A stretch of 64,000 bases of DNA. Source: Tetrapyrgos nigripes (Eukaryota; Basidiomycota; Agaricomycetes; Agaricales; Campanellaceae). How positions within the stretch are numbered: the stretch's first letter is position 1; every line of letters starts with the position of its first letter. The stretch is from assembly GCA_013368315.1 (NCBI GenBank), contig JAACJM010000149.1:1-64000 (forward strand), read 5' to 3'. This document shows positions 9,291 to 60,300 of the stretch, in pieces. Below the pieces are notes generated by a model. That model had not been told where the DNA came from. It searched no databases and worked only from the letters and a program-made list of their open reading frames with translations. The position numbers and the translations under genes are program-made.

Positions 9291-10065
9291 GAATGAGCCC
9301 ACAACAAAAATACATTCATAGTAAACTCCCCTGCACTCACATACTTCTTTCTCCACCAAACTTGTATCTTCACATCCAGAGTACCTATCATTGCAAGGCT
9401 TCTCTCCCTATCATTCTGGCACTAAATGAGGCCAGAATGAGCCCACAACAAAAATACATCTGTCAGAAACCCCCTACACTCACATACCCTCCCCCTCACC
9501 CCCCCACAAACTCATATCTTCACATCCAGACCACCTATCATTGTGGGGTTTCTCTCCCTATTATTCTACAGTGAAATGAGGCCAGTATGAGCCCACAAAA
9601 AATATATCTGTTACAAACTCCCCTGCACTCACATACCTCCCCCTCACCCCCCCCCACAAACTCACATCTTCACATCCAGAGCACCTATCATTGTGGGGTT
9701 TCTCTCCCTATTATTCTGGAGTTAAATGAGGCCAGAATGAGCCCACAACAAAAATACACTCACATACCCTCCCCCTCACCCCTCTTAAATTCATATCTCC
9801 ACATCTAGAGTACACATCATTGTGGGGCTTCTCTCCGTGCTATTCTGGGGTTAAATGAGGCCAGAATGAGCCCACAACAAAAATATATCTGTTGTAAATT
9901 CTCCTACACTCACATACCCTCCCCCTCACCCCTCATAAATTCATATCTCCACATCCAGAGCACCTATCATTGTGGGGTTTCTCCCTCCTATTCTGGAGTT
10001 AAATGAGGCCAGGATGGGCCCAGAATAAAAATACATCCACAGTAAACTTCCTTGCACTCACACCA
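9291..10065 (+). repeat. Tandem repeat of ~147-bp unit, about five copies
   Basis: The unit carries GAGCCCACAACAAAAATACA, then CTCACATACC with C-rich runs, then CATATCTTCACATCCAGA, CTATCATTGTGG and AAATGAGGCCAGAATGAG. Copies start near 9295, 9440, 9590, 9740, 9868 and 10015 (the last partial). Spacing varies from about 130 to 150 bp because of indels in the C-rich block. The small frames running through it are repeat translations and not genes. Confidence 0.85.
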
Positions 10066-14256: not shown

Positions 14257-15031
14257 AATGTGTTGTGCAGCTGTCTTCTTCAGAACAGTGTTCAGAACAG
14301 TACATGGAGATAAGGAATCGCAGATAGTTCGAACGGTGGAGACACTGGGCTACATGCTACAGGCCTTGTCTGCGTCTACGGGGACAACATAGGTCTATCG
14401 CTCATTTCTTGTTTTTTTCTTGGTCCTGAGCTTTAGAATGTATATACTGACCGGTTCTTTGCTTTTCCACGTCGTTTCGTTTGAGCTGTGCGTCTTGCGC
14501 ATGTAAATGAACCCGTTTACCTTGCCTTATCACTCGTTTCTTCTTGGCATCCTTATTATGTTGGAACACATTTGAATTACTTCTTGTTCTTTCTCTTCTC
14601 TCATTGGGAGTCGTCTGGCTACTTTTGTTTTTTCTTTTGGTCTGGCTTTTTTTTCTTTTGAGCTTCTCTTGGCATAGTCTTTATTGTTGTTTTTCCTTTC
14701 TCTGGTAGCCTCGTCTTCTTACTTTGCACTTAGCATCATCGTCTTTACTCATTTGAGTCCGTTACATGATCGAAAGCTCTTCCTCCGAGTCTCCTCGTGG
14801 TATGGTACTAGTACAGGCCTTGACTCTCAGAATCTCAAATTTCCAAGTATATTTATTGTTATTGTTCATGAGGAGTACAGGAGAATTGAGATTCTCGTAT
14901 AAATACAAACAGACTCGAATCAAACTAAAAAATTGCAAAAACCAGATGAGAACGAGCTTGCCAGGACCCAAACCGGAAAAGTGTACTGTGAACCGTATTA
15001 TTTATGTTTTCCGGTATCAGGGATACTGCCT
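14257..15031. other. Intergenic, T-rich
   Basis: This stretch follows the repeat element and lies beyond the 3' end of the minus-strand membrane-protein gene. It is T-rich on the plus strand around 14,400-14,760. Frames reading through are unrecognised or are antisense shadows of the last exon of that gene. Confidence 0.5.
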
Positions 15032-17157: not shown

Positions 17158-19640
17158 TGTTCAATCTGCACAAAAAATACTTGACCCGTTGATGTTACAT
17201 GTAGCCGACCCGTCAAAGATAGATTCTCGACCCATCATAGATTATGTGTTCATATCCGCCAACTAGGTATGTGCACCTGTGAAAGAGATATACATTCAAG
17301 GTACACCAGGAGTCCGAGTTCAGCATAACTTCCTCAAGTACACCCATTCAAGAGCCTCACAAATTACACTACGAGTCCAAAGTAGGGCACAAATCACAGC
17401 CTGTTTCAACTAAGGCTATATACTACATTGGAAAGGACGAATAAACTAGGTCTGTGAGAGCTTGAGAGTCCGGCCAATTGGATTAAACGAGGATATTGGT
17501 ATGGAAGTTGTATTACTGAGCCAACAGCGCAGCACGGAAACCAAGAAATAAGAAGACTTCATTGGCGATTCGCTGTTGGAGTCATGAGTAAAAATGATCC
17601 ACGATAATGATTTAAAGTTTCAAACTTACAACCTTATCGACTGTGTAAACTTGCAAGGACGGTCGCTCATGTCGAGACCCTACATGTCAATACGAACCTG
17701 CAACCATCCTCCATTCGCACCCACACTACGATCACTGCCTGGAACGGAAAGAAAACCATCAAATAAGAAAGAAACGATACGTTCATACGTACCTCCAATG
17801 AGCATAATATTATTTGCCTCAGCAAAAGCATAGGGCAAAAGCATAGGCGTCAAACCACGGAACACCGGCCTGCTCAGGAAAAGGGAAAACAATAAGTCCG
17901 AGTCTAGAGTTGAATGGAGATACATGAAGACACGCCACAGCATAAGAATGATAGGATGTATCAGGACTCTTTGGGAGGGCGTTCAATTAATAAGGCGATG
18001 ACTTACCCAGAGAGCTAATGAGTTAGGAGCACTGCTACACCCTACGTAGTCGTGCTGCCGTGCTGTCGGAGATTGCGAGTTGATATTTGTCTCAACAGCG
18101 TAGAATGACGGACACTATGCTGTTCAATCTGCACAAAAAATACACCCGTCAAAGATATATGTGCGAACCGTCAAAGATATCTAACTGACCCGTTAAAGAT
18201 ATATACCCCAACCCGTTAAAGATATATGCCCAGACCCGTCAAAGATATACCTCGACCCGACCCGTCAAAGATATACCCTGACCCGTCGAAGATATCCCAA
18301 CCCGTTGATCATGAAGATTATTCCAGACCCGTCAGAGTCCACTGACAGTTCAAAGTAGCGCAAAAATGATATCTTGGACCCGCCATATCTACTAAGTCTA
18401 TATACTACATTGCCTAAGGGATTGTACGATGCGAAACCTTGAACTCAGCTACAAAAAAGGATCTGGATGAGTGAGTGTAGGGGTATCAGTAACGAAGCCA
18501 GTCCGTGATATTAAGAAAGCGGTAGAGTAATCCAGAGCTGATAATTATGCCGTTCAATCTGCACAAAAAATAGTACCCGTCGAAGATATACACCCCACCC
18601 GCCAAAGATATATACCCGACCCGTCGAAGATATACCCACCCACCCGTCAAAGATATATACCCCACCCGTCAAAGATATACCCCCACCCGTCGAAGTTATA
18701 CCTTTTATCAGGAAAATGGTAATAAAAAAAGTGTTTCTTAAAGCTTTTCCTACAATGTCATGCCTCAAAATCCACCATTTGAGCTTTCTGGAGCTCTAGA
18801 AAATCGAGAATTTCCTGTTGGTCTGCCGACAGAGGCCGGAAATGCCGAGATGGCAGGCAATTTTGCGTGAGAATGCCGAATGCCGTACTGCCAGCTCAGC
18901 ACGTCCCTTTCCTCCTTACCACCATCCTCAACCCCACGTCGCGTCCTCGAACGCAACGAAGAGCCCGGAGTTCACCGTATATTTTCTTCACAATCCGCTA
19001 CACGCATCTACAGTATCTGGTCCTGAATCTATCCCCTACTCGTTGGATCAACTTTGGACTCCAGCTCCACGAACGCTGGTGCTGCCCTTTGGTATGGTCA
19101 TCTCATCAATTCTGCTGAGTATTTTGCTTCATTTCACTGTTTTCTGCCTCTGTTTAATGGATTCTGGCCTCCGTGAAGAACTTGATGCAAGCAGGGAGGG
19201 AGAGGCATTTGGACGTGGATAAGGAGCATTGCCAGAGCCAGGACCAGCAGAAGGGTAAATGACGTCTAACCCACTCTTTCTTTCTTATCACGTTCTACAT
19301 GTGGTAGAGTTACACTCATGCTTTTGATCCTTAACTCCGCCTACAGTTGCTTCCTCTCCTCATCAGATTCTTCATAATGCATTATCTATGCCGTTCAATG
19401 TGCACAAAAATCAAGACCCCATCAATATATATGTGGTACCCGTCGATGCTATATACGTGACCCGTTGACGTTATACCCGCCCGTCAAAGTTACTTATATG
19501 TTCCAGTCAGCCGCTCAACTTTCCTTGGTTTTCTATGTTTATTGCGTACAGCCCACCCACCTCAACCCTTCTTATTGCCTTTTTCTATGCTGTTCAATCT
19601 GCACAAAAAATTAATCCCCGTTACGAGGCCGAATAAAATG
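17158..19640 (+). repeat. Five same-orientation copies of a TTCAATCTGCACAAAAAAT module
   Basis: The module heads lie at about 17158, 18121, 18552, 19392 and 19591. The first four are followed by variable tandem units of ~18-22 bp with consensus GACCCGTCAAAGATATAT: about 3, 8, 6 and 4 units. The fifth runs instead into CCCCGTTACGAGGCC, the terminal motif of another repeat family. On the minus strand the module reads as GTATAT-containing units with CTTTGAC, then TTTTTTGTGCAG, that is, intron-like signals. Between copies there is no recognised gene. Confidence 0.7.
17690..17905 (-). other. Possible two-exon fragment of a membrane protein
   Basis: On the minus strand an acceptor (GAGCAG) precedes a frame reading PVFRGLTPMLLPYAFAEANN and continuing IMLIG. 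This ends at a GTACGT donor and can be spliced to a downstream segment reading VIVVWVRMEDGCR. The hydrophobicity is compatible with a membrane protein, but no start or remaining exons were found. It may be a relic lying between repeat modules. Confidence 0.2.
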
Positions 19641-22435: not shown

Positions 22436-25164
22436 GCCCACATCCCTTTCATCTCTGTGCCTCCTGCAAAATCCAGAGCAAAGAATTTGTGCTAATAGGT
22501 GTCTTTTGCGTAAGTGTAGAACAAACACAAACTTAGAAGACTTTTATACAAATATTATACAAATAGTAAAGTGCAAGTGTTCTGAGTAGTCAGAATACTC
22601 AACAGTTCACTTGTACTACAAGGACTTTTTGGGGGTTTTGGTAGGGGTTTTGCACGAATGCACACAAGTTAAACACACACACAGACTATAACAAGTCCAC
22701 AAAGATATAACCAACAGTTTCAATTCACAATTTGTAGGCCCAAATGCCTTATAACCAGTTTCACAAGTCTGAGGACACACACAAAAAGGTAACACAAAAA
22801 CCAACAAATTTGATTCAACACTATTGATCCACACACTATGTTTATACTCAATGTGAGTGAGGTAAATTTGGTAGAAGCATAGTCTGTGTTTCACAGTCTC
22901 TACAGCTAGTGCTAGTGAGATGACTGATACTCTACAGTACGTGGCTTGAGTAACTACAAGAAATACCTAGTCCTTTTATACTACTCACAGCTACTACTAT
23001 ACAGTTCTACATTTCTTTTTAATGTCCGCTAAAAGGTACCTAAGAAAAACAGAAATATTAGTCTAATTCCCAGTCCATGCTTGTCTGTACTACTAGATTA
23101 ACTAGGTACTTTCTAATTAGGGTATCTAGGAAATGTAGAATATTATCTAAAACTAATAGGGCTTTCTATGTTCCCTTCGTTTCATCCTCTTGACTAAGAG
23201 TACCTTTCTGGAACTGGCAGCTGTAGTCATTCTGACCATGCTGGGCTCCACTCATATGACTCACATTCCTTTACTGCCAATCAGTTGTTATAGGTTTGCG
23301 TAGTCCTTGCTTATTCTCCCTCTTATGTTTTTCTGGCGAAACTATAGACTTGGTGTTTATAGACTTTGTTTCTAGTATACTGCCAGTTAGTTCTTATAGA
23401 TGAGTCCTGCTCTCTATAAGGTCCTACATGTCTTTTGTAGTCACATTTTTACCAATGAGAATGCCTCAGTCATCAGGTACACATCTTGCTGATCTTACTG
23501 CTGCATTCGGAAATACCTTTACCCTTTTTGGGGTTTTCTCATTATGACTCATTCCTTAGATCACATACTGGTGGTAATGAACTATGGGCTTTATTCCTTC
23601 ACTGCTAGTCCATCCCTTTAGTACCATATGAAAGCTGAGCTTTCTAGGAACTCATACATATATACTTTGTCCTACTTTTCTATCCTTACTGCCTTTCAAA
23701 AGACTATTCCTTCTGTCTTGCTTACAAGCAAGGTATTGCTTGTTATACCGCTAGTTCAGACATAGTCGGTTACTAGGGCTATCCTTGCCATTTCTAAACC
23801 AGTGATCATTTAGCGCTAGAGTCTGGGTCATATAGCCTACGTGTTCCTTGCCCGTGAATAGGGGCTTCACTTTCCCTTGAATCGCACTGGCAATACTAAG
23901 CATGTTATAGTAGGAATGGTTACAAAGTCTTTATAGAACTTTGTATAGTATATGGGGTGGATCTGCTACTATAACTGAAGCACTGTACACATCAACCATA
24001 GTACTTAGAATAAGCATATCCTATTCATAAGTACCTAGTTTTATTGTACTGGCACATACACTTAGTCCACTAGCACTTTAACTACCAGTTTGGGACTCAC
24101 TCTAGTCCTTCATATACCAATTGAAGTGGTGAATCAGCTTTCTAACTGCCAATTAACGTTTCTATATGCAAATTTCGTATGGTGTATCAGCACACCACAA
24201 GCCAGAAACCTCTCAAGCCAGGGAAGTCAGGCTCAGCAAGGCAAGTAACAACTTTTTCCACCTGTTTACTTACCACTCATTCATCTATGTAGGAATCTAT
24301 GTGCAATACAATACAAGAAGGACCATCTAAAGGCTACAACTGGTGAATTCAGCAAGTACTGGGACAGTATTGAAGGTACATCTACTGCTGAGGTGACATG
24401 TTCTTGTTTTTCAGTCTATCTATTACATGCTCATTTCTGTACAGGAGTGGGAAGTGGCCTCTTCAGCTGCAAAGGCCAGAAAGAAGGGTGGCAGGTAATT
24501 GAGGGGGGATGGAGGGGGTAGTATGCAAGAATAGATATGGTTACATCATACATGTATTTGTATATTTATTGAAATATATACCTTCCATGTATAGTAATTA
24601 TGATTCTATATGGAGTTATTATGAAACTTCTACATAGCTATAAGTATGGCTAGTCCTTCAGGACATTCTCCAGACATTACTCTTATCTCTTAGTATATAG
24701 TGATATCTCTCTAGATGGCAATATGGCCAATGGCAGTATTCCTTTAGTCTCTAGGTATGTCCATGGACGATGTAGATATTAGTAATTACATACTCTTTAT
24801 CTAGTATAAAAGCTCTTTGTAAAATTGTATTTACTACAGAACAATATCTAGTTCTATCTGCTCTCCAAGCAATTTGTATCTCCTCAACATTCTATTTGGT
24901 GAGCTCCATGGACTGGTCACCCTACACTGATTAGTTGCTGCTTCATTAATATTTTCATTTCAATTAGAGATACAAAAAATACATGTATTCCTATCCATTC
25001 ACATATGTTCTTGATGAGATCTATGACAGAATCATGGATGTCTAGCTAAATAGATACAGTAGGATATGAAATTATGGCATCAATTTATTCTCATTTTCGG
25101 CAATTCTGGTATAATCACTTACACTTTCATGATTTCATATGATTTGATTCGTCACAGATATATA
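22436..25164. repeat. AT-rich repeat debris without genes
   Basis: The segment opens with a minus-oriented head of the TTACGAGGCC family (GGCCTCATACTTGCC...TTGGCCCACA at about 22436-22472). The remaining ~2.6 kb is AT-rich, with short imperfect repeats (TACTGCCAGTTAGTTCTTATAG-like units, quoted only as CCAGTTAGTTC) and no frame above 100 codons with a recognisable product. It could be the body of an old non-coding retroelement. Confidence 0.4.
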
Positions 25165-25604
25165 GAGGCCTTGTACTTGCCACACATTAGTGTTGGCCCA
25201 CAACCACTTCATTTAAATCCTTGCCCCAACGACCATGGGCATGAGCTAACAACCCCTTGCTGTCTGGTAATAAGGCTACTCAATTGCTCCTCCTCCAAAA
25301 AAAAAAGACAAGGAACTGTCGATGTAGCAGATGAGTACCACTCAGTGCAAGGAAATGTGGGCCATCACTGATGTGTGGCATGGATACGAGGCCTTTTGAA
25401 GCAACGACTGTCAACTGCAATGCCGCTGAGCTCTGAGTTTGAATTCTGGCCAAACAGCAAAAGTACTGTGACAGTACAATATGGGAATTGCTGAAAAGTG
25501 GATTGGAGTGAAAAAGATAACTGAACTGATGGACCATTTTAGCATAGCCACACAGCAAATGGCCAGTTTGTAAGAAAGAGTCCCTTAAAAGGGCCTTGTA
25601 ACCA
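25165..25604 (+). mobile_element. Hairpin-ended family members, head-to-head pair
   Basis: A minus-oriented head (AGAGGCCTTGTACTTGCC ending TTGGCCCACA) lies at 25165-25204. A plus-oriented head (TGTGGGCCATCACTGATG, GTGTGGCA, TACGAGGCC) lies at 25358-25400. The plus copy continues to a tail GTCCCTTAAAAGGGCC ending at about 25604. Its interior contains GAGTTTGAATTCTGG, resembling a pol III B box, and CTGTCAACTG shared with the copy at 60.3 kb. No coding capacity is present. Confidence 0.55.
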
Positions 25605-28772: not shown

Positions 28773-29562
28773 TCTCCAGCTACATTCCTCTTTCAAGATA
28801 TGATTGATGAAGGATGGATTGTCATCTATATGGATGATATCCTAATCTTCTCAAAGGACTTCAAAGAGCACCAAATCCAAACTCTACAAGTTCTAGAATG
28901 ACTCCAAAAGAACAACTTGTTCCTGAAGCCAGAGAAATGCGAATTTGGCAAAGAACAAGTAGGATTTTTGGGACTCATCATCAGGATCCTACAAAACTAG
29001 CAGGGATTTGAGACTGGAAAGCCCCAACATCAGTTAAAGGAGTACAGTCCTTCTTAGGATTCAGAAACTTTTATAGGAAATTTATTGGAAGATATGCAGA
29101 TATTGTGAAACCACTTCACAGACTCACAAAAAAGGACAAGAAATTTGAATGAACTCCAGAATGCCAAAAGGCATTCAATGAATTGAACCAGTTTTGCAGA
29201 TGTCAGACACAGAAAAACCATTCATCATTGAATGTGACGCTTTGAAATGGGCAACAGGAGCAGTACTCAAACAACAAGGCATGAATGAGGATTGGCATCC
29301 TTGTGGATATATTTCTCATGCTTTTACTGAGATCTATGACAGAGAACTCTTGGCTATTCAAAGCTCTCAAAGCATGGAGACATTATCTACAAGGATCTAA
29401 TCACATAACCACTATCTTGTCAGACCACAAAAATCTCAGAAGCTAAACCAACAACAAGCCAGATGGAGCCTTTTCCTCTCTGAGTTTGATCTTAAACTCA
29501 TTCATACTCTGGGAATAAAGATGATACAATCTGATGCCTTGTCCAGATGAGAAGACATGATT

Positions 29563-30026
29563 CCAGAAGAAGACACCAATAATGAAAATGTCACCATGCT
29601 CTCTGACAAACTCTTTGTTAGGGTAATAGATACAGAACTTCACTCCCTTATCACAGAAAGAACTATGAAGGATGACCTTGTATCAAAAGCAGTGGATGCT
29701 TTGAAGACAAAAGGAATACCACTGATAAAATCTGCATTATCAGATTGGAAAATCAAAGGGAACATCTTATTCTTCATGAATAGATGTTATGTATCCAGAA
29801 GAAGACACCAATAATGAAAATGTCCCCATGCTCTCTGACAAACTCTTTGTTAGGGTAATAGATACAGAACTTCACTCCCTTATCACAGAAAGAACTATGA
29901 AGGATGACCTTGTATCAAAAGCAGTGGATGCTTTGAAGACAAAAGGAATACCACTGATAAAATCTGCATTATCGGATTGGAAAATCAAAGGGAACATCTT
30001 ATTCTTCATGAATAGATGTTATGTAC
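29563..30026 (+). repeat. Near-identical 232-bp tandem duplication in pol
   Basis: Bases 29563-29794 are repeated at 29795-30026 with only a few differences (for example ACC/CCC in the ...NENV(T/P)MLSD stretch). The unit covers the RNase H-integrase linker, from PEEDTNNEN to the FFMNRCYV segment. Only the second copy runs into the integrase zinc region. The high identity shows it arose after much of the element's decay. Confidence 0.9.
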
Positions 30027-31315
30027 CAGATGATGAAGAATTGCGAAGGAACATCATGAAACAATATCACAAAGGGATATCAACAGGACATCCTGGACAG
30101 TATGCCACACTGGAATTGATTCAAAGAGAATATTAGTGGCCAGGAATATATTCTTTCATCAAACAATACATAAAAGGATGTGTCATTTGTCAACAAATGA
30201 AGATTAACACACATCCTACAACCCCACCTTTACATCCCATCCCAGGATCAAAAAATGCCTTACCTTTCAATCATCTTACTATGGATTTAATCACAGACCT
30301 ACCAGAGATAGACAGAGAGAATTCTATCTTGGTTGTGGTAGACCACATGGCTACAAAGGGGGCAATTTTTATCTCTTGCCACAAAGCAATCGATGCAACT
30401 GGAATAGCCATTCTTTTGTTAGACAATGTCTACAGAAGGTTCAGATTACCAGAGGAACTCATATTCGATCAAGACCCTAGATTTGCAGCAGATGTATTCC
30501 AGGAACTAGGACGACTTCTTGGAATCAAACTCTCCATGAGTACGGCATATCACCCACAAACCAATGGAGAAACTGAATGGGTCAACCAAGAGTTGGAAAC
30601 CTATCCTCAATTGTTCTGTGCAAGGAACCAGGAGAAGTGGAAGAAATCTTTACCTATGGCAGAATTCACTCACAACAACCAAATTTACACTGCAAGGAAT
30701 CATTCCCCCTTCTACCTCATGATAGGATACAATTCTAGACCCTTGCTGACAGCCTTCAGAGAAACCAACATACCAAGTGTAGCAGACTGATTGGCTAGAT
30801 TACAGAAAACCCGAGAAGAAATGTTTGCCCTACACGAGTTAGCCAGACAGACTGATCCAACAAAAAATTCACACCATTCAAACAAGGACAGAAGGTATGG
30901 CTAGAAGCCAAGAACATTCGACTCATTTATCTATTGAGAAAACTAGCACCATGAAGAGGGGGTCCATTCACTATCAATAAAGTCTTAGGACCTTTGACAT
31001 ACAAACTGGACTTACCACCACAGTGGAAGATCCATCCTGTGTTTCACACCTTGCTCCTAACCCCCTTCCATGAGAATGAAGCACATGGAAGAAATTTCCT
31101 AGAACCACTCCCAGATGTGATTGATGGACAAGAAGAGTATGAAGTGGAGGCAATCCTTTTACATAAACCAAAAAACAAGCCTTGCTACTACCTTGTGTCT
31201 TGGAAAGGATACCCTTCTGCCTCAAACTTATGGGAACCTGAAGGAAACCTGGAAAATGCCAAAGAAGAACTTGAAGCTTATAAACCAGAACTCAATCTTC
31301 AACATCTCTTTAAAC

Positions 31316-44795: not shown

Positions 44796-46488
44796 CTACT
44801 TCTTCCTCCCATAAATCTTCCCCAAAAAGCTCCTAAACACCTCCCTCCTAACACCCTCCTTCCCATCCCCAGGCTCAATTACCTCCTCTTCAATCATCTT
44901 ATTCAACTTCCCCACAACCCCCTCCTCATACTCCCTATAAATCTCCCTAATCCCCAACTCCTCAAACACCCCTTTAACGCGTTTTTCAGCTTCCCCAAGG
45001 TATCCTTGTTCATTCTGAGGATCTCTACCCTCTCGTTCGGCTTGAGCGCGCATATCTTTGGCTTTTTGAACTTCTTCCGGAGTGGGTTTAACTCCATAGC
45101 TAGCTTCTAATACTTTTCGAAGTTCGGCTCGTCGTTCGGGGGATAAAGCCGACGCAGGTGAAGAAGGGGCGGGTGCAAGATCAGGATTGGAAGAGGTAAG
45201 GTTTAAAGCGGTGTTTACAACCCAACCACATTTGTTGTCTACTATATCTGTCCCCACTTTTCCAATCTCGGAAGGAAGTCCTGAGAAATCTAGAAAGTCG
45301 TCTTGGATTTGGAAATATTCGCCTAGGGGGATGAGGATTCGGAGTGCGGTTATGTAGGGGGGTGATAGTGAGATGTTGGATTGGGATGGAGGGACTGAGG
45401 ATGAAACGAGAGAGAGGGTTGAGTCGATGGATTGGGAGACGCGGGAGTGGGGGTGGGAGATTTGGGGCATCGAAGTGCTGGTGCCGTTTACACCGTTTGT
45501 TGGTTTAGAAGAGGTCGAGGTGGTGGTGTAAGGAATCCCACACATCAACATGGCGAGAGCAACGGGGAGGTAGAATGAGTAAAAGGAGGTTTTGTAGATG
45601 ACGATAAGGGAGTGTCTGGAAAGGTAAAGTTAGTTTTCGGTTTTCTTGTCAACGAAGGAAGGGAAGGTGGCGAAAAGGCAAAGATAAAGGTAAAGTGGAA
45701 GATGGGGAAAGAGAAACATAAACAAAGACGACAGACACAAAAACTCACTTCTCCAATGAAAATTTACTCAAATCTACATGATCCTCTGGTGCTGAGATCA
45801 AATCTATAAGTTGGCCTAGTTCGGTTTGGAAAGTCGTCTCGTGGAAGATTTCGAGGAGGTCGACGTAGTAGGGTTGGCCTGTGCGTTGCGTTGTGTGTTT
45901 GGTTAGATAGGGTGGAGGAAAGAGAGTAGAACGACCCACCCTTAAAATGCTTCTTCAACAAATAATATATCGACGCCTCGAGCATGAACGCGTCGTTTAC
46001 TGCGATGGTTCTGACATGGGGTTGACGGTACCAACAGGGTTGACCGCGACGGGTGATGGAGCCGTCCATGAGGTCATCGGAGACGAGGAAGAAGGCTTGG
46101 AGCTGGACGGTAGAAACGGTCGGTCAGAATAAGATTTGAGATTGTGGTAGACAACAAGTTGGACGCACCAGCTCAACACCCCAGCCCAGAACGGCAGCCT
46201 TGAGATACTCATCATCATCCAACGGACGAGCCTTGATAATCTCTGCAGTATCGATCACGGAGAGTCCGCGGTTGAGTTTTCCGCCTGGGACGTTGTATTC
46301 GAGGGACTGTATTCAAAATAAGCGGGTTATTCAGTTTTTCATTGACTAGAAAGGGGTGGGCGCACGTTATGAAACCACTCAACCGCATCCTTGGGCATAT
46401 TGTTCAGCTTTGCATAGTCGACGAGCTCATCCCGGATGACGATCCAGGCTTTCTCGAATTTGGCGCGTTTGGCTGCTTTGTCGGACAT
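44796..46488 (-). CDS. Farnesyl diphosphate synthase (ERG20-type) with extra loops
   Basis: Five exons on the minus strand, 46488-46366, 46306-46169, 46102-45940, 45878-45749 and 45615-44796, encode 457 aa with all phases matching. The first aspartate motif is [19 protein letters not shown] (DDxxD at about 96-100). The two Phe at -5/-4 are the eukaryotic FPPS product-length signature. The second motif is [13 protein letters not shown] (DDxxD at about 290-294). [25 protein letters not shown] and [10 protein letters not shown] are also typical. The enzyme joins DMAPP/GPP with IPP to give FPP for sterols, prenyl groups and sesquiterpenes. It is about 100 aa longer than usual (~350) because of a Ser/Thr/Pro-rich insert at about 213-271 and a second insert after [10 protein letters not shown] chose the ATG at 46488; an upstream in-frame ATG at 46539 would add 17 hydrophobic residues. 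It is divergent from the P450. Confidence 0.92.
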
Positions 46489-50770: not shown

Positions 50771-52089
50771 CTGTACACTCCTATGAATAGAGCACATATC
50801 CGGCGTCGGATCTATGTAGACAGTACCGATTTCCTACATACATTTGGTTGTAGCAGAACTCTCCTCATAAGGTTCTGAAGCGTCCGGAGTCTTCGAAATG
50901 AAGATATATTCATCCTGTCACTTTTACTCCTGAGTGCTGCAGTGACACACAGATTTTGACAGTCAGAGACAATACATTTTTTCTGATAGGACAATGATGG
51001 AAAAGTTTACATTGTGATCACCCAGCCATAAATAGGATGTCCTCTGTCAGTGCATATTGTCTTTCTTCCCGCTGTATCAATCAGCACGCTGGTTTTCAGC
51101 TAGGGAACACATGAGGCTAGGTTCAGTCCTCTGCAGTGGGATTTTGAAGAAGGATATTGAAGCCAGGTTCCCGAATTCTGGTTCATGGTGCTGGAATGTC
51201 TGGTGGCTACACTTGGCTTAGGATCAGTAAAACTGGAGGTGGAGGCGAGCACTGATGGTGAAGGATGATAACTGAGGTTGAAATGGCTGAGGGGAGGAAG
51301 GCTATGATAAGCTTCAGAGGAAATTTGGCTTGGTTGTGGTGTTGAACAATAATGCACTACATATTTATCTCTAGATGCTGGTGGAACTGATACGACCGAT
51401 AGTCGTATACCCCTAGAAAATCATGATGATAATAAAACATATTCACTTACTTGAACCTGGTTTGACAGAGTCTATCCGCGTAAGACTCCTCGATCAGTAC
51501 TAGTAAAAGAATGGAGCTGTGGCTCCATACTAGTAAATACTCAATCACGAGTGAATGGCAAAGCAACGCACCTTGATACCCATGCCAGGAGACTCATAAC
51601 CAAGAGATACGAGCAGTGGTAGCATTAAAGAATAAGAAACGAGTCAAGAACAAGCTCAGGGAAGCTCAACGAAGAGAAAAGTAACAAGAGAAGAATAGAA
51701 ATTGATGCACCCGCAGTTCCGAGGCAGAGGCTGCACTTACCAAATTAGAGCACAAGAATTCAAAACTCATTTGAGTCATTCAACGCGTTGGAATGATGGA
51801 AGTTACCTTAGAGATGATGAACTACCTTCCTGTGCCCGCAACTATGTATTCAGTTTTAGACTAAATTATTAGACATGTATATAAAGTACTCACCTGTAGA
51901 TCTGTACCACAGAAACCAACTGCCCCCGTTTGACACTAGAGAACCTCGTCTTCGGGTGGAATTAGAGAATATCATTGTGATTTGATTGTTATTTTGTGTT
52001 TTATCTTGAATAGGGGAATCCCAACCTGCGGACTCACAGTTAGTGTCACTGAGGAATCTCCATTCAAGTGAATTCACCTATTCCAAACC
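50771..52089. other. No recognisable gene
   Basis: Frames are short and unrecognised on both strands. The minus-strand frame 51100-51357 is Ser/Pro-rich low complexity. This stretch separates the gene island from the palindromic element. Confidence 0.45.
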
Positions 52090-52092
52090 TTA

Positions 52093-52510
52093 CACTGGAG
52101 GCAAATCCCTGTAAATCATCTGCCATACAGAGGTATTACAGTGACCTTACAACAAGTCATTCAATAAGTAATCCACCTTGTATTACAGAGGTATTACAGA
52201 GAGAAGAATTTTCCAGATCAATGCTGTAAGACTGCTGTAAGACAAGTTGTATTACAGGGAGATTTCAGAGGCCAAATCCCTGTATATCCAGTGCCCTACA
52301 TAGGGATTACAGCAAACTTACACAAAGCCATTCAACAAGTATTCTGCCTTGGATTACAGAAGTATTACAGAGAGAAGAAATTTTGGGAGCAATGCTGTAA
52401 GACTGCTGTAAGACAAGTTGGATTACAGGGAAATTTCAGAGTGACATGGTGTCACAGTAATACATTAGGTAATACAGCCAAGAAATACAGAAGTATTTCA
52501 GTGTGACAAA
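52093..52510 (+). repeat. Left terminal inverted repeat with ATTACAG subterminal motifs
   Basis: The arm contains many copies of (G)(T/G)ATTACAG, often paired about 11 bp apart (GAGGTATTACAG, GAAGTATTACAG), plus two copies of a longer internal block ending CTGTAAGACTGCTGTAAGAC. These are typical transposase-binding-like subterminal repeats. It is mirrored by 59041-59462 with visible differences such as CCAGTGCC/CCGGTGCC. Confidence 0.85.
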
Positions 52511-55500
52511 AGTGTGCAGGTGGCGTCCAGAGTGCGGGCAGGTTGCGTCCAGGGTGCACGCAGGTTGCGTCCAGAGTGCGCGCAGGTTGCGTCCAGAGTG
52601 CGTGCAGGTTGCGTCCAGAGTGCCCGCAGGTTGCGTCCACAGTGCGCGCAGGTTGCGTCCAGGGTGTGCGCAGGTTGCGCCCAGAGTGCATGCAGGTTGC
52701 GTCCAGAGTGCGCGCAGGTTGCGTCCAGAGTGCACGCAGGTTGCGTCCAGAGTGCGCGCAGGTTGCGCCCAGAGTGTGCGCAGGTTGCGTCCAGGGTGTG
52801 CGCAGGTTGTGTCCAGAGTGCGTCCAGAGTGCGCGCAGGTTGCATCCAGGGTGCGTGCAGGTTGGGTCCAGAGTGCGTGCAGGTTGGGTCCAGAGTGCGC
52901 GCAGGTTGGGTCCAGGGTGTGCGCAGGTTGGGTCCAGGGTGCGCGCAGGTTGGGTCCAGAGTGCGCGCAGGTTGGGTCCAGAGTGCGTGCAGGTTGGGTC
53001 CAGGGTGTGTGCAGGTTGCGCCCAGAGTGCGTGCAGGTTGCGTCCAGAGTGTGCGCAGGTTGCGTCCAGGGTGCGTGCAGGTTGCGCCCAGAGTGCGTGC
53101 AGGTTGGGTCCAGAGTGCGTGCAGGTTGGGTCCAGAGTGCATGCAGGTTGGGTCCAGGGTGTGCGCAGGTTGGGTCCAGAGTGCGCGCAGGTTGGGTCCA
53201 GAGTGCGCGCAGGTTGGGTCCAGGGTGCGCGCAGGTTGCGACCAGAGTGCGCACAGGTTGGGTCCAGAGTGCGCGCAGGTTGGGTCCAGAGTGCGCGCAG
53301 GTTGGGTCCAGGGTGCGCCCAGGTTGCGTCCAGGGTGCACGCAGATTGAGTGCGCGCAGGTTGCGTCCAGGGTGTGCGCAGGTTGCGTCCAGAGTGCGCG
53401 CAGGTTGCATCCAGAGTGCGCGCAGGTTGCGCCCAGAGTGCGCGCAGGTTGTGTCCAGAGTGTGCGCAGGTTGTGTCCAGAGTGCGTACAGGTTGCGTCC
53501 AGAGTGCGTGCAGCTTGCGTCCAGAGTGCGCGCAGGTTGTGTCCAGAGTGCGCGCAGGTTGTGTCCAGAGTGCGCGCAGGTTGCGTCCAGAGTGCGTGCA
53601 GGTTGCGTCCAGAGTGCGTGCAGGTTGCGTCCAGAGTGCACGCAGGTTGCGTCCAGAGTGCGCGCAGGTTGCGTCCAGAGTGCGCGCAGGTTGTGTCCAG
53701 AGTGCGCGCAGGTTGCGTCCAGAGTGCACGCAGGTTGCGTCCAGGGTGCGCGCAGGTTGCGTCCAGAGTGCGCGCAGGTTGCGTCCAGAGTGTACGCAGG
53801 TTGCGCCCAGAGTGCGCGCAGGTTGCATCCAGGGTGCGCGCAGGTTGCGTCCAGGGTGCGTGCAGGTTGCGTCCAGATTGCGTGCAGGTTGCGTCCAGGG
53901 TGCGCTCAGGTTGCGTCCAGAGTGTGCGCAGGTTGCGTCCAGGGTGTGCGCAGGTTGCGTCCAGGGTGCGCGCAGGTTGTGTCCAGAGTGCACGCAGGTT
54001 GCGTCCAGAGTGCGCGCAGGTTGCGTCCAGGGTGCGCGCAGGTTGCGTCCAGAGTGCGCGCAGGTTGCGTCCAGAGTGCGCGCAGGTTGCATCCAGAGTG
54101 CGCGAAGGTTGCGTCCGGAGTGCGCGCAGGTTGCGCCCAGATTGCACACAGGTTGCGTCCAGAGTGCGCGCAGGTTGCGCCCAGAGTGCACGCAGGTTGC
54201 ATCCAGAGTGCGCGCAGGTTGCGTCCAGAGTGCGCGCAGGTTGCGTCCAGAGTGCGTGCAGGTTGCATCCAGAGTGCATGCAGGTTGCGTCCACAGTGCG
54301 CGCAGGTTGCGTCCAGGGTGCGCGCAGGTTGCGTCCAGAGTGCACGCAGGTTGCGCCCAGAGTGCGCGCAGGTTGCATCCAGGGTGCGCGCAGGTTGCGT
54401 CCAGGGTGTGCGCAGGTTGCGTCCAGAGTGCGCGCAGGTTGCATCCAGAGTGTGCACAGGTTGCGTCCAGAGTGTGCGCAGGTTGCGCCCAGAGTGCGCG
54501 CAGGTTGCGTCCAGAGTGCGCGCAGGTTGCGTCCAGGGTGCGTCCAGAGTGCGCGCAGGTTGTGTCCAGAGTGCGCGCAGGTTGCGTCCAGAGTGCGTGC
54601 AGGTTGTGTCCAGAGTGCACGCAGGTTGCGTCCAGAGTGCACGCAGGTTGTGTCCAGGGTGCACGCAGGTTGCGTCCAGGGTGTGCGCAGGTTGCGTCCA
54701 GAGTGCGCGGAGGTTGCGTCCAGAGTGTACGCAGGTTGCGCCCAGAGTGCGTGCAGGTTGCATCCAGGGTGCGCGCAGGTTGCGTCCAGGGTGCGTGCAG
54801 GTTGCGTCCAGATTGCGTGCAGGTTGCGTCCAGGGTGCACTCAGGTTGCGCCCAGAGTGCGCGCAGGTTGCGTCCAGAGTGTGTGCAGGTTGCATCTAGG
54901 GTGCGTGCAGGTTGCGTCCAGGGTGCGCGCAGGTTGTGTCCAGAGTGCGTGCAGGTTGTGTCCAGAGTGCACGCAGGTTGCGTCCAGGGTGCACGCAGGT
55001 TGCGTCCAGAGTGCGCACAGGTTGCGTCCAGAGTGCGCGCAGGTTGCGTCCAGAGTGCGCCCAGGTTGTGTCCAGAGTGCGCGCAGGTTGCGTCCAGAGT
55101 GCGTGCAGGTTGGGTCCAGAGTGCGTGCAGGTTGGGTCCAGAGTGCACGCAGGTTGCGTCCAGGGTGCGCGCAGGTTGCGTCCAGAGTGCGCGCAGGTTG
55201 CGTCCAGAGTGCACGCAGGTTGCGTCCAGAGTGCACGCAGGTTGTGTCCAGAGTGCACGCAGGTTGTGTCCAGGGTGCACGCAGGTTGCGTCCAGAGTGC
55301 ACGCAGGTTGTGTCCAGGGTGCACGCAGGTTGCGTCCAGGGTGTGCGCAGGTTGCGTCCAGAGTGCGCGGAGGTTGCGTCCAGAGTGTACGCAGGTTGCG
55401 CCCAGAGTGCGTGCAGGTTGCATCCAGGGTGCGCGCAGGTTGCGTCCAGGGTGCATGCAGGTTGCGTCCAGATTGCGTGCAGGTTGCGTCCAGGGTGCAC

Positions 55501-57306
55501 TCAGGTTGCGCCCAGAGTGCGCGCAGGTTGCGTCCAGAGTGTGTGCAGGTTGCATCTAGGGTGCGTGCAGGTTGCGTCCAGGGTGCGTGCAGGTTGTGTC
55601 CAGAGTGCGTGCAGGTTGTGTCCAGAGTGCACGCAGGTTGCGTCCAGGGTGCGCGCAGGTTGCGTCCAGAGTGCGCACAGGTTGTGTCCAGAGTGCGCGC
55701 AGGTTGCGTCCAGAGTGCGTGCAGGTTGCGCCCAGATTGCGCGCAGGTTGCGCCCAGATTGCGCGAAGGTTGCGCCCAGATTGCACGCAGGTTGCGTCCA
55801 GAGTGCGCGCAGGTTGCGCCCAGAGTGCACGCAGGTTGCGTCCAGAGTGCACGCAGGTTGCGTCCAGAGTGCACGCAGGTTGCGTCCAGGGTGCACGCAG
55901 GTTGCGTCCAGGGTGCACGCAGGTTGCGTCCAGGGTGCACGCAGGTTGCGTCCAGGGTGCACGCAGGTTGCGTCCAGGGTGCGTGCAGGTTGCATCCAGA
56001 GTGCGTGCAGGTTGCGTCCAGAGTGTACGCAGGTTGCGCCCAGAGTGCGCGCAGGTTGCATCCAGGGTGCGAGCAGGTTGCGTCCAGAGTGTGCACAGGT
56101 TGCGTCCACAGTGCGCGCAGGTTGCGTCCAGAGTGCGTGCAGGTTGCGTCCAGAGTGCGCGCAGGTTGCATCCAGGGTGCGCGCAGGTTGCGTCCAGGGT
56201 GTGTGCAGGTTGTGTCCAGGGTGTGTGCAGGTTGCATCCAGAGTGCGCGCAGGTTGCGTCCAGAGTGCGCGCAGGTTGCATCCAGAGTGCGCTGCGTCCA
56301 GAGTGCACGCAGGTTGCGTCCAGGGTGCACGCAGGTTGCGTCCAGAGTGCGTGCAGGTTGCGTCCAGAGTGTACGCAGGTTGCGCCCAGAGTGCGCGCAG
56401 GTTGCATCCAGGGTGCGAGCAGGTTGCATCCAGAGTGTGCACAGGTTGCGTCCAGAGTGTGCACAGGTTGCGTCCAGAGTGCACGCAGGTTGCGCCCAGA
56501 GTGCGTGCAGGTTGCATCCAGGGTGCGCGCAGGTTGCGTCCAGGGTGTGCGCAGGTTGTGTCCAGGGTGTGTGCAGGTTGCATCCAGACTGCGCGCAGGT
56601 TGCATCCAGAGTGCGCGCAGGTTGCGTCCAGAGTGCGCGCAGGTTGCATCCAGAGTGCGCGCAGGTTGCGCCCAGAGTGCGCGCAGGTTGCGTCCAGAGT
56701 GCGCGCAGGTTGCGTCCAGGGTGCGCGCAGGTTGCGTCCAGGGTGCGCGCAGGTTGCGTCCAGAGTGCGCGCAGGTTGCGTCCAGAGTGCGCGCAGGTTG
56801 GGTCCAGAGTGCGCGCAGGTTGGGTCCAGAGTGCGCGCAGGTTGGGTCCAGAGTGCGTGCAGGTTGCATCCAGAGTGTGTGCAGGTTGCGTCCAGAGTCC
56901 ACGCAGGTTGCGTCCAGGATGCACGCAGGTTGCGTCCAGAGTGCGCGCAGGTTGCGCCCAGAGTGCACGCAGGTTGCATCCAGGGTGCGCGCAGGTTGCG
57001 TCCAGAGTGCGCGCAGGTTGCGCCCAGAGTGCGCGCAGGTTGCATCCAAGGTGTGTGCAGGTTGCGTCCAGGGTGCGTGCAGGTTGCGTCCAGATTGCGT
57101 GCAGGTTGCGTCCAGGGTGCGCTCAGGTTGCGCCCAGAGTGCGCGCAGGTTGCGTCCAGGGTGCGCGCAGGTTGCGTCCAGAGTGCGCGCAGGTTGCGTC
57201 CAGGGTGCGCGCAGGTTGCGTCCAGAGTGCGCGCAGGTTGCGTCCAGGGTGTGTGCAGGTTGCGCCCAGAGTGCGTGCAGGTTGCGTCCAGGGTGCGCCC
57301 AGGTTG
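52511..57306 (+). repeat. 22-bp minisatellite, block 1 (about 218 units)
   Basis: The repeat core is GCAGGTTGCGTCCAG followed by a variable AGTGCGC/GGTGCAC-type heptamer. Period is 22 bp, with occasional half-unit (11-bp) joints, for example near 52,820 and 54,540. Common variants are GCGTCC, GGGTCC, GCGCCC, GCATCC and GTGTCC. No unit contains a stop in any frame on either strand. This explains the overlapping apparent ORFs of up to 1,917 codons with 22-residue repeats such as RVRAGCVQSARRLRPECAQV. A 660-bp (30-unit) block is duplicated within it. Confidence 0.95.
54655..55570 (+). repeat. 660-bp higher-order repeat inside block 1
   Basis: The variant order from about 54655 to 54910 recurs from about 55315 to 55570 with only one or two differences. 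It includes the rare variants GCGCGGAGG, CCAGATTGCG, GTGCACTCAGG and GCATCTAGGG. The displacement is 660 bp = 30 units. A weaker relative with the CCAGATTGCG/GCTCAGG marker pair occurs near 53,875 and near 57,092. The array therefore grew by unequal exchange of blocks of tens of units. Confidence 0.85.
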
Positions 57307-59040
57307 ACCCTGGATGCAACCTGCGCACACTCTGGGCGCAACCTGCGCGCACTCTGGGCGCAATCTGCATGCACTCTGGGCGCAACCTGCGCGCACTCTG
57401 GGCGCAACCTGCGCGCACTCTGGGCGCAACCTGTGCGCACTCTGGGCACAACCTGCGTGCACTCTGGGCGCAACCTGCGCGCACTCTGGGCGCAACCTGC
57501 GCGCACCCTGGACGCAACCTGCGCGCACCCTGGACGCAACCTGCGCGCACTCTGGGCGCAACCTGCACGCACCCTGCGGGCCCTCTCGGCGCAACCTGCG
57601 CGCACTCTGGACGCAACCTGCGCGCACCCTGGACGCAACCTGCGCGCACCCTGGACGCAACCTGCGCACACTCTGGACGCAACCTGCGCACACTCTGGAC
57701 GCAACCTGCACGCACTCTGGGCGCAACCTGCACGCACCCTGGACGCAACCTGCCCACACTCTGGATGCAACGGGGGCGCACCCTGGACGCAACCTGGGCG
57801 CACTCTGGACGCAACCTGGGCGCACTCTGGATGCAACCTGGGCGCACCCTGGACGCAACCTGGGCGCACTCTGGACGCAACGGGGGCGCACCCTGGATGC
57901 AACCTGGGTGCACCCTGGACGCAACCTGCGCGCACTCTGGACGCAACCTGCGCGCACTCTGGACGCAACCTGCACGCACTCTGGGCCCAACCTGCGCGCA
58001 CTCTGGACCCAACCTGCGCGCACTCTGGGCGCAACCTGCGTGCACTCTGGACGCAACCTGCACACACCCTGGACGCAACCTGCGCACACCCTGGACGCAA
58101 CCTGCGTGCACCCTGGACGCAACCTGCGCACACTCTGGGTGCAACCTGCGCGCACTCTGGACGCAACCTGCACACACTCTGGGTGCAACCTGCACGCACC
58201 CTGGACGCCACCTGCGTGCACTCTGCACGCAACCTGCGCGCACTCTGGACACCGCACTCTGGACACCGCACTCTGGGCGCAACCTGCGCGCACCCTGGAC
58301 ACAACCTGCGCGCACTCTGGGCGCAGCCTGCGTGCACTCTGGACGCAACCTGCGCGCACCCTGGACGCAACCTGCGCACACCCTGGACGCAACCTGCGCG
58401 CACCCTGGACGCAACCTGCGCACACTCTGGGCGCAACCTGCGCGCACTCTGGACGCAACCTGCGCGTACTCTGGACGCAACCTGCGCGCACTCTGGACGC
58501 AACCTGTGCGCACTCTGGGTGCAACCTGCGTGCACCCTGGACGCAACCTGTGCGCAATCTGGGCGCAACCTGCACGCACTATGGATGCAACCTGCGCGCA
58601 CTCTGGACGCAACCTGCGTGCACTCTGGACGCAACCTGCGCGCACTCTGGACGCAACCTGCACGCACTCTGGACGCAACCTGCGCGCACTCAACCTGGAC
58701 GCAACCTGGGCGCACCGTGGACATAATGGGGGCGCACCCTGGACGCAACCTGGGCGCACTCTGGGCGCAACCTGGGCGCACCCTGGACGCAACCTGCACG
58801 CAATCTGGACGCAACCTGCACGCACCCTGGACGCAACCTGCACGCACTCTGGGCGCAACCTGCGTGCACTCTGGACGCAACTTGCGCGCACCCTGGACGC
58901 AACCTGCGCGCACCCTGGACGCAACCTGCGTGCACCCTGGACGCAACCTGCGTGCACTCTGGATGCAACCTGCACGCACTCTGGACGCAACCTGCGCGCA
59001 CTCTGGACGCAACCTGCTCGCACTCTGGACGGCCCCTGCG
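57307..59040 (-). repeat. 22-bp minisatellite, block 2, reversed polarity (about 79 units)
   Basis: From 57307 the same unit reads as its reverse complement (core CTGGACGCAACCTGC). The block ends in the same boundary structure as block 1 begins, so the array joins the TIR at equivalent positions on both sides. A variant with ACCTGGGCGCA is clustered at 57,765-57,925 and 58,690-58,790. Open frames here are repeat translations. Confidence 0.95.
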
Positions 59041-59462
59041 CACTTTTGTCACACTGAAATACTTCTGTATTTCTTGGCTGTATTACCTAATGTATTACTG
59101 TGACACCATGTCACTCTGAAATTTCCCTGTAATCCAACTTGTCTTACAGCAGTCTTACAGCATTGCTCCCAAAATTTCTTCTCTCTGTAATACTTCTGTA
59201 ATCCAAGGCAGAATACTTGTTGAATGGCTTGGTGTAAGTTTGCTGTAATCCCTATGTAGGGCACCGGATATACAGGGATTTGGCCTCTGAAATCTCCCTG
59301 TAATACAACTTGTCTTACAGCAGTCTTACAGCATTGATCTGGAAAATTCTTCTCTCTGTAATACCTCTGTAATACAAGGTGGATTACTTATTGAATGACT
59401 TGTTGTAAGGTCACTGTAATACCTCTGTATGGCAGATGATTTACAGGGATTTGCCTCCAGTG
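59041..59462 (-). repeat. Right terminal inverted repeat
   Basis: This is the reverse complement of 52093-52510, beginning directly after the array with CACTTTTGTCACACTG and ending CCTCCAGTG before TTA. The 71-codon frame present in both arms (MPYIGITANLH...) is carried by the repeat itself and has no recognisable function. Confidence 0.85.
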
Positions 59463-59465
59463 TTA

Positions 59466-60300
59466 CTACCTACATAAACCATCATACCTTCTAGAGTGTG
59501 GACCTTTGCTCCCAAGTCCTTATCTCTCCGAGACCCCTTTGAACTTAAGGAGTCTTATTAAGTGTTTTATTGAGAGTTTTAGTAGTTTTCTATTGAAAGC
59601 TACATTTCTACCTACTACACTTACTAGCCCTATCAGAACAGAATGATGTATGGTAATTGCTGGAGTATTGCTACTACTTGTGAAATGGGTCAGGTAAATT
59701 ATCATCCATACATATGCTCTGTTGGCAGGCGGTAAGTATATGCAAAGGGTTGAGGTTGAGGATACTGGCATGTAGTAGTGGGCTCTGCTGCCGTGAAGGG
59801 GCTGGGCCTTCTCTGGTTATTTGCTTAGGGTTGTAGGAAGACATTTGATGTGAGACCAACCCCCAAAAGATATATTGATTCTGTGAAGTTGAAAAAGCAG
59901 CAGCTTTTATTCCGCTTATGAATCACACTCTGACGCAGCTTTGTGGGGCGCGGCAGTGCAAAGGGGTCACTCAACAAACAGACCAACCTATGGTTGGGAC
60001 TGGCCATGAGAGACTAAGAAGTATCAGCAATGCAATGACACCACAATCTGATGAGGTATATCACCAGCCAGCATCTCTATTCCCTGATCATAATCACAAT
60101 TTACCGCACACAGGCTATGTCACAAGGCTAAATCTGAAGTGTAACTACGCACCCAACACCTATAAGTTGAGCTTGTGTTTCGGACTATGGATGGATACTC
60201 TTGTCCTGGCTGGTCCAACTACTTCATGAATGCCATCAACCCTATCCCTTCCTTAACTGCACTCCTTTTGGACCTAGAAACTGTCAAAATATGAAGGAGA
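59466..60300. other. No recognisable gene
   Basis: Short unrecognised frames only (for example 59918-60229). The composition is intermediate. No clear repeats were found. Confidence 0.45.

Follow-up and report, generated by a model that had tools for sequence, protein, structure and literature searches.

We analysed a 64,000-nucleotide stretch of the Tetrapyrgos nigripes genome (assembly GCA_013368315.1, contig JAACJM010000149.1, positions 1 to 64,000 of the forward strand), hereafter the window, in which positions 52093-59462 form a 7,370-bp element with CACTGGAG termini (CACTGG). Long terminal inverted repeats (TIRs), flanked by a target site duplication (TSD), enclose an interior made of a 22-bp minisatellite whose two blocks run in opposite directions. 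We consider it likely to be a non-autonomous foldback-type DNA transposon of a CACTA/EnSpm-like group whose arms are remade by inverted copying. Its parts, with array bounds from Tandem Repeats Finder (TRF), are as follows.

52090-52092, no strand: left TSD, TTA, 3 bp
52093-52514, plus strand: left TIR, first letters CACTGGAGGC
52098-52441, plus strand: tandem duplication of 171 bp within the left TIR (TRF, 84% match)
52516-57306, plus strand: array of the 22-bp unit GCAGGTTGCGTCCAGAGTGCGC in forward polarity, 215 units (TRF bounds; count by unit matching)
57298-57303, no strand: polarity switch, last forward and first reverse unit (unit matching; TRF array bounds 57306 and 57310)
57310-59031, minus strand: array of the 22-bp unit GCAGGTTGCGTCCAGAGTGCGC in reverse polarity, 77 units (TRF bounds; count by unit matching)
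59041-59462, minus strand: right TIR, last letters GCCTCCAGTG
59114-59457, minus strand: tandem duplication of 171 bp within the right TIR (TRF, 85% match)
59463-59465, no strand: right TSD, TTA, 3 bp

The TIRs are 422 bp each and 99.5% identical in inverse orientation, and between them lie 292 units in total with one polarity switch by unit matching. These measurements agree with a preliminary description of the same letters, which had claimed a TTA duplication, CACTGG termini at these boundaries, near-identical TIRs of about 420 bp, and about 300 copies of a 22-bp unit in two opposed blocks. Its term "giant palindrome" holds in part, in that the blocks are opposed and the ends mirror each other over 675 bp at 96%, but the arms are unequal (4.79 vs 1.72 kb), and the best arm-to-arm score beyond 675 bp is 225, compared with a median of 210 and a maximum of 312 when the same arm is scored against the arms of other copies. 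We rejected a true palindrome past the first 675 bp because similarity there is the background found between copies. The 361 bp around the switch are predicted in silico, with DNA parameters, to form a single hairpin (-227 kcal/mol, z -31), and a single strand of the element would fold on itself.

The element belongs to a real, dispersed mobile family with fixed termini and variable 3-bp duplications. In the 98.46-Mb genome (587 contigs), the terminal 21-mer has 142+144 matches (286) at up to 3 mismatches and its reversed control 1+0, so that the TIR is not confined to this locus; confinement to it is what the preliminary description had named beforehand as refuting a mobile family. The inner 57-mer of the TIR has 69+63 matches (control 0+0), and the 22-bp unit occurs 4885+3509 times at up to 3 mismatches, compared with 0+0 for the reversed pattern, so its abundance is not due to chance. 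The matches listed include 100 terminus places, every one exact; 72 of these make 36 inward-facing neighbour pairs of 1531-17259 bp (median 4354.5), some of which may be nested or compound, and 28 are without a listed mate. Miniature inverted-repeat transposable elements (MITEs) are short non-coding elements with TIRs, below ~600 bp, and the label MITE proposed at the outset does not suit listed pairs that span 1.5-17.3 kb with a median of 4.4 kb.

We read 28 complete copies with both ends present (the window copy plus 14 and 13 others), chosen by terminus. Pieces with only a single end of an element of this first family (L021, L022, L025-L027 and L051-L055) were not counted, nor were L028, which overlaps two counted copies, and the neighbouring pieces L049 and L050. 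The termini CACTGGAGGC..GCCTCCAGTG (CAC..GTG) are present in all 28, as copies picked by that terminus, and an exact 3-bp target duplication flanks 26 of the 28, or 25 of 26 distinct insertions, with no duplication of 4-11 bp at any of the 28. The two copies without a duplication (L037 and L038) represent a single insertion, and L010 and L011 represent another. A TTA duplication at each copy, as had been expected, was not found: the target is TTA in 4/28 copies and TAA in 1/28 (5/28 together), and the remaining duplications are ACT, TCA, GCA, TAT, TAG, TGA, TTT, TTG, GAA, ATA, AAT, CGT, CTT, and TGG. Array length differs among the TIR-flanked copies and none of the 28 has a gene-sized interior, both as proposed for a non-autonomous multi-copy family. 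Some TIR ends are identical in different copies (e.g., the left end in the window and the right end of L009), which suggests recent movement.

The window element is inserted in repeated host sequence (flanks 51793-52092 and 59466-59765), and insert-free sites could therefore be seen. With the element removed, the joined flanks have 49 matches at 68-97% identity, the window itself excepted, and gapped matches over query positions 1-470 span the junction at C58, C90, and C388 (91-92%) and at C154 (88%). The preliminary description had anticipated empty allelic sites, and these are sites without the insert in repeated host sequence. Two terminus pairs, C37:383130-400388 and C170:37643-49318, have inner TIR ends at both sides and long interiors, with 22-bp units near both ends of the C37 pair. 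A third pair in the 11.7-17.3 kb range is C80:135199-149700. A 451-bp element at L051:2155-2605 has TIRs ~80% like those in the window and no array, and its flanks GGGTA/TACCC extend as an inverted repeat, not as a direct duplication.

Opposed array blocks of several units are present, by unit matching, in 22 of the 28 complete copies, and the copies fall into two types. In type A, the subtype of the window element (20/28), the array begins directly behind TIR position ~422, and its polarity is the same when read inward from either end. A single plus-to-minus switch is seen in 14 of these 20, and the other six are one-armed or nearly so: by unit count L018 and L056 show one polarity only and L019 and L048 have just one unit of the other polarity, and L017 and L020 each have one arm, with TIR pieces embedded in it. 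In type B (8/28), ~240-300 bp of extra sequence lies between TIR position ~419 and the array, making a TIR of about 660 bp, and there is one switch in six of the eight copies, three in L040, and two in L044. The exact string that joins TIR to array in type A is found at 37 of 40 type A ends and 0 of 16 type B ends (37/56 overall); the right end of L019 has a variant join, and that of L056 is without it. That both ends have the same join suggests to us that one was copied onto the other. In type A, array polarity is set by the adjoining TIR. The switch position differs in nearly every copy, and the switch sequences of the 14 two-armed type A copies are all distinct by eye. When units were compared in register by distance from the TIR, phase was lost after ~5 units; indels break the register, so conservation can be claimed for the first units only. 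Inner TIR fragments lie inside the arrays of L017 (2314-2391) and L020 (861-985), and a junction motif, AGAGTGCCC[GA]CAGAGTGCCC, is common to L017, L019, and L020; these embedded pieces read as higher-order duplications of the array plus a TIR end.

Copies that share one insertion bear on how the arms change. The left flanks of L010 and L011 are identical over 200/200 bp and the right flanks differ by 5 mismatches and 19 gap bases in 1.5 kb. The TSD is the same, yet the elements are 3516 and 4787 bp long with unlike arm proportions and switches. Within L011, positions 755-1967 mirror 3703-2491 at 99.67%, a 1.2-kb inverted duplication whose breakpoint is the polarity flip at 2491-2513. The arm-to-arm score of L011 is 1175. 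In the 13 other copies tested the two arms score 37-294 against each other, and scores between copies reach at most 499, for L011 against L010. The long right arm of L010 aligns to the inverted left arm of L011 (1366-2144 with 2320-1542, 94.9%). Only one of the two copies at this insertion has the inverted duplication, so arms can be rebuilt once an element is in place; those of L011 were probably remade by inverted copying between ends, and the mirror arms of this one copy seem to have been remade recently. A 3-kb stretch of the window has partial matches elsewhere in the assembly and no full second copy, so L010 and L011 may represent either a haplotype kept in the assembly or a segmental duplication. 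In the other pair at one insertion, L037 and L038, the switch sequence is the same and the lengths are 4213 and 3910 bp; this 303-bp difference fits slippage.

A sister family carries a different repeat. At C188:112986-122169 (L049, L022), next to a first-family copy, a related element has CACTGGGT ends and ~1.25-kb TIRs, the ends being 68-75% similar, in pieces, to the TIRs of the window family. Its 9-bp array, GTCTGCCTC, lies at 114237-116308 and is inverted at 119970-120902, where a short forward stretch (119804-119968) precedes it; the ends mirror over 2.2 kb at 93.7%, array included, and the interior has no stop-free frame over 114 codons. This copy terminates 8 bp ahead of a 22-bp array and is thus probably nested in the first family. 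The sister terminus has 271+278 matches in the genome (549; control 0+0), which makes it more abundant than that of the first family. Exact places of a 27-mer of the sister unit number 100 among the matches listed, reaching C44; the pattern is simple and its reversed control is not clean (374+358 vs 3435+3412). In all ten scored pairs, that is, listed pairs holding unit places, the unit is forward in the left half and reverse in the right half, with both polarities shown by only two of the ten and with a 100-bp midpoint tolerance that makes a difference for C22; unit places without a listed pair (C5, C29:539845, C30, and C42) were left out. A second sister copy, partly read, is at L052:6650-9101 with a switch near 8260.

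The CACTA/EnSpm group is indicated by the termini, the end motifs, and the length of the duplication, and the element is built like a foldback element, with long TIRs, tandem repeats of variable number within them, and opposed arms. A repeated subterminal motif is a CACTA trait, and TTACAG occurs 13 times on both strands of the 422-bp TIR (shuffle mean 0.42, maximum 4 in 300) and TTACAAG 14 times in the sister TIR (shuffle mean 0.46), both motifs having been chosen after inspection. CAC..GTG ends with a 3-bp TSD are given as criteria for fungal EnSpm elements in the excerpted text of PMC12730594, where Plavaka termini are TGT..ACA or CATCA..TGATG. The genome has 117 matches to Transposase_21 (Tnp2; PF02992) at E<=0.001 and at least 163 Plavaka matches; the search for an autonomous partner used PF02992 and PF18759 only. 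One Tnp2-encoding segment, C34:24400-25800 (match 24887-25273), lies between inward termini at 14467 and 29856, and Tnp2 matches at C270:37943 and C230:23151 are close to copies but outside them. Ten open reading frames (ORFs) from L052-L055 gave no transposase and two Pfam matches, Cyclase (over the cut-off) and Glutenin_hmw (below it). The family is thus CACTA-like by anatomy, with candidate transposases only.

In the reading that we favour, a Tnp2-like transposase of the CACTA kind would bind the TTACAG-rich ends of this foldback-type, CACTA-like element and mobilize its copies in trans. A repeat beside one TIR would have spread to the other end because inverted ends copy each other and carry the adjoining repeat along, whether by inverted gene conversion or by template switching after fold-back, after which ordinary slippage, or else unequal exchange, would lengthen or shorten each arm. 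The array itself most likely neither codes for anything nor serves as a binding site.

Several observations weigh against this reading. CACTA TIRs are short, and the 422-bp TIR here differs. Across the 28 complete copies no gap of more than ~400 bp separates the TIRs from the array blocks, and no transposase is tied to the family. A sister-family end at C34:16987 falls inside the C34 Tnp2 span, and the weaker Tnp2 match at C22:405072-405521, between termini at 396692 and 419948, shares its span with L009, so both matches may be nested insertions. Type B arrays start in reverse polarity, except at the forward left end of L044, and this opposite start is not predicted by the simplest growth model. 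Clear inverted copying is seen in one copy only (L011), the arms being at background similarity in 12 of the 14 two-armed type A copies. In L013 both TIRs are identical and the end mirror reaches into the array, to 812 bp at 98.3%, which fits inverted copying between ends, but the arm-to-arm score (294) does not exceed the highest score of that copy against others (317), and the argument for L013 therefore depends on the TIR-anchored register. The nearest relative of a TIR is its own mate for only 12 of 56 ends and lies elsewhere for 44, so that end-to-end conversion is not continuous. Several switches resemble GTGCGCAC, and the longest palindrome there is at least 8 bp in 10/14, compared with 73% of random joins; the unit itself is quasi-palindromic, and the idea of a microhomology signature at switches was dropped.

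A broader version of our reading is offered tentatively, as a possibility that we would not yet back: the inverted ends of this CACTA-like clade may act as a palindrome-making machine, in which any short repeat adjacent to a TIR is copied across and expanded into a mirror minisatellite. If so, unrelated units (22 bp and 9 bp) have been captured repeatedly, the families carry giant inverted satellites, already formed and still evolving, to new places in the genome, and each switch point records a post-insertion event of inverted copying.

The minisatellite might instead be an expanded array of binding sites for a transposase or host factor, maintained by selection for transposition and not by copying errors, with the inverted layout kept because synapsis requires the two ends to be oriented alike. 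The TIR repeats of Galileo are reported, in excerpts of PMC3573991 and PMC4079207, to hold secondary transposase sites, and polarity is anchored to the TIR in type A and in the scored sister copies. We regard this as unlikely, given that TTACAG (TTACAAG in the sister family) is a motif of the TIR that the unit consensus lacks, that the sister family carries an unrelated 9-bp unit, that one-armed L017-L020, L048, and L056 all have exact TSDs, and that type B copies start with the opposite polarity. Slightly less probable still is a role of the mirror array as a trigger of hairpin RNA or heterochromatin, where read-through transcripts would fold into long double-stranded RNA (dsRNA) and small RNAs would guide CpG methylation to the family. 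The folding of the 361-bp junction segment, calculated as DNA, agrees with such a role, as do the transitions in 3401 units, which at CpG positions reach 0.198 (C-to-T) and 0.159 (G-to-A) per site, compared with 0.013 and 0.019 at the other C and G positions. This pattern suggests CpG methylation of the unit, but it fits any methylated repeat and needs no hairpin, and non-CpG sites vary too: position 16 (A/G) is variable in 1134/3447 units, and A-to-G changes occur at 0.117 per site.

Two further explanations concern the assembly and the superfamily. Arrays of the 22-bp unit reach ~9 kb (L021) and are hard to assemble, so the layout could be an artefact, either a long-read palindrome from a missed adapter or a collapsed repeat. 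Such errors are expected to leave near-perfect mirrors, however, whereas the window arms are unequal and similar only at background level past 675 bp, opposed blocks recur in 22/28 copies, and flanks outside the element carry TSDs in 26/28; we hold an artefact to be very improbable. Most improbable of all is a PIF/Harbinger element carrying a satellite. PIF/Harbinger elements have their own terminus type and a preference for TTA/TAA targets, and the TTA duplication of 3 bp in the window would suit them, but only the five copies noted above have a TTA or TAA target and the CACTG termini are CACTA-like.

Elsewhere in the window, an ORF at 44796-45551 (minus strand) encodes a polyprenyl synthetase with Agaricales matches (Moniliophthora, 54%; Lentinula) and a top match of 59%. 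Two small arrays at 18146-18295 and 18575-18701 are built of another 22-bp unit (CCGTCAAAGATATATACCC...), which by eye has no relation to that of the element; imperfect tandem repeats of 129-279 bp lie at 9357-10035, and a 232-bp tandem duplication (98%) lies at 29562-30030.

The window family looks like a foldback case in a fungal CACTA-like group, and its terminus count puts it at well over a hundred copies. Where two copies share an insertion, the growth of inverted repeats can be traced stage by stage, and having two sister families whose repeats are unrelated makes the effects of the TIR separable from those of the repeat. These transposons disperse kilobase-scale inverted minisatellites, which could be fragile sites or sources of dsRNA.

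The preliminary description had called such an element "not a standard class", but tandem repeats within long inverted ends define the foldback elements, a class that includes Drosophila FB. The window family shares with Galileo, Tetris, and Tm1 tandem repeats in long inverted ends, varying arm length, and many non-autonomous members. Galileo belongs to the P superfamily in Drosophila and has a P-type transposase, according to excerpts of PMC3573991 and PMC4079207; Tetris of D. virilis is summarized as having ~220-bp repeats in its TIRs and 8-10-bp TSDs, and Tm1 of Meloidogyne as having a ~14-bp motif in its TIRs and 9-bp TSDs. The window family differs from these in its CACTG ends and 3-bp TSD, the latter also setting it apart from Mutator-type foldback elements (Tetris, Tm1) with their 8-10-bp TSDs, and in arrays of hundreds of units that fill the interior and meet directly. 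For Galileo, it has been proposed that the inverted repeat grows when one TIR, together with the sequence beside it, is copied to the opposite end (PMC3573991, in part), and PMC4079207 (in part) describes foldback structure as believed to have independent origins across transposon lineages. With the fungal CACTA/EnSpm elements, as excerpted from PMC12730594, the window family shares 5'-CAC..GTG-3' ends, a 3-bp TSD, and a repeated end-region motif, and Tnp2-type transposases are present in its genome, but it has a TIR of 422 bp (about 660 bp in type B), no gene, and a minisatellite interior. BrickBuilt, a Porphyromonas gingivalis MITE with a 23-bp minisatellite, resembles it as a mobile-looking multi-copy element with a minisatellite body of similar unit length but is bacterial with small inverted ends, and mirror arrays are not mentioned in its abstract (PMC4596501). 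Among the matches listed from titles and abstract openings of the open-licence PMC literature, there was no fungal CACTA foldback with minisatellite arms. The foldback design is known, and what is unfamiliar here is its occurrence in a CACTA-like transposon group. The family makes no new category; what is surprising is its scale and the visible remaking of its arms.

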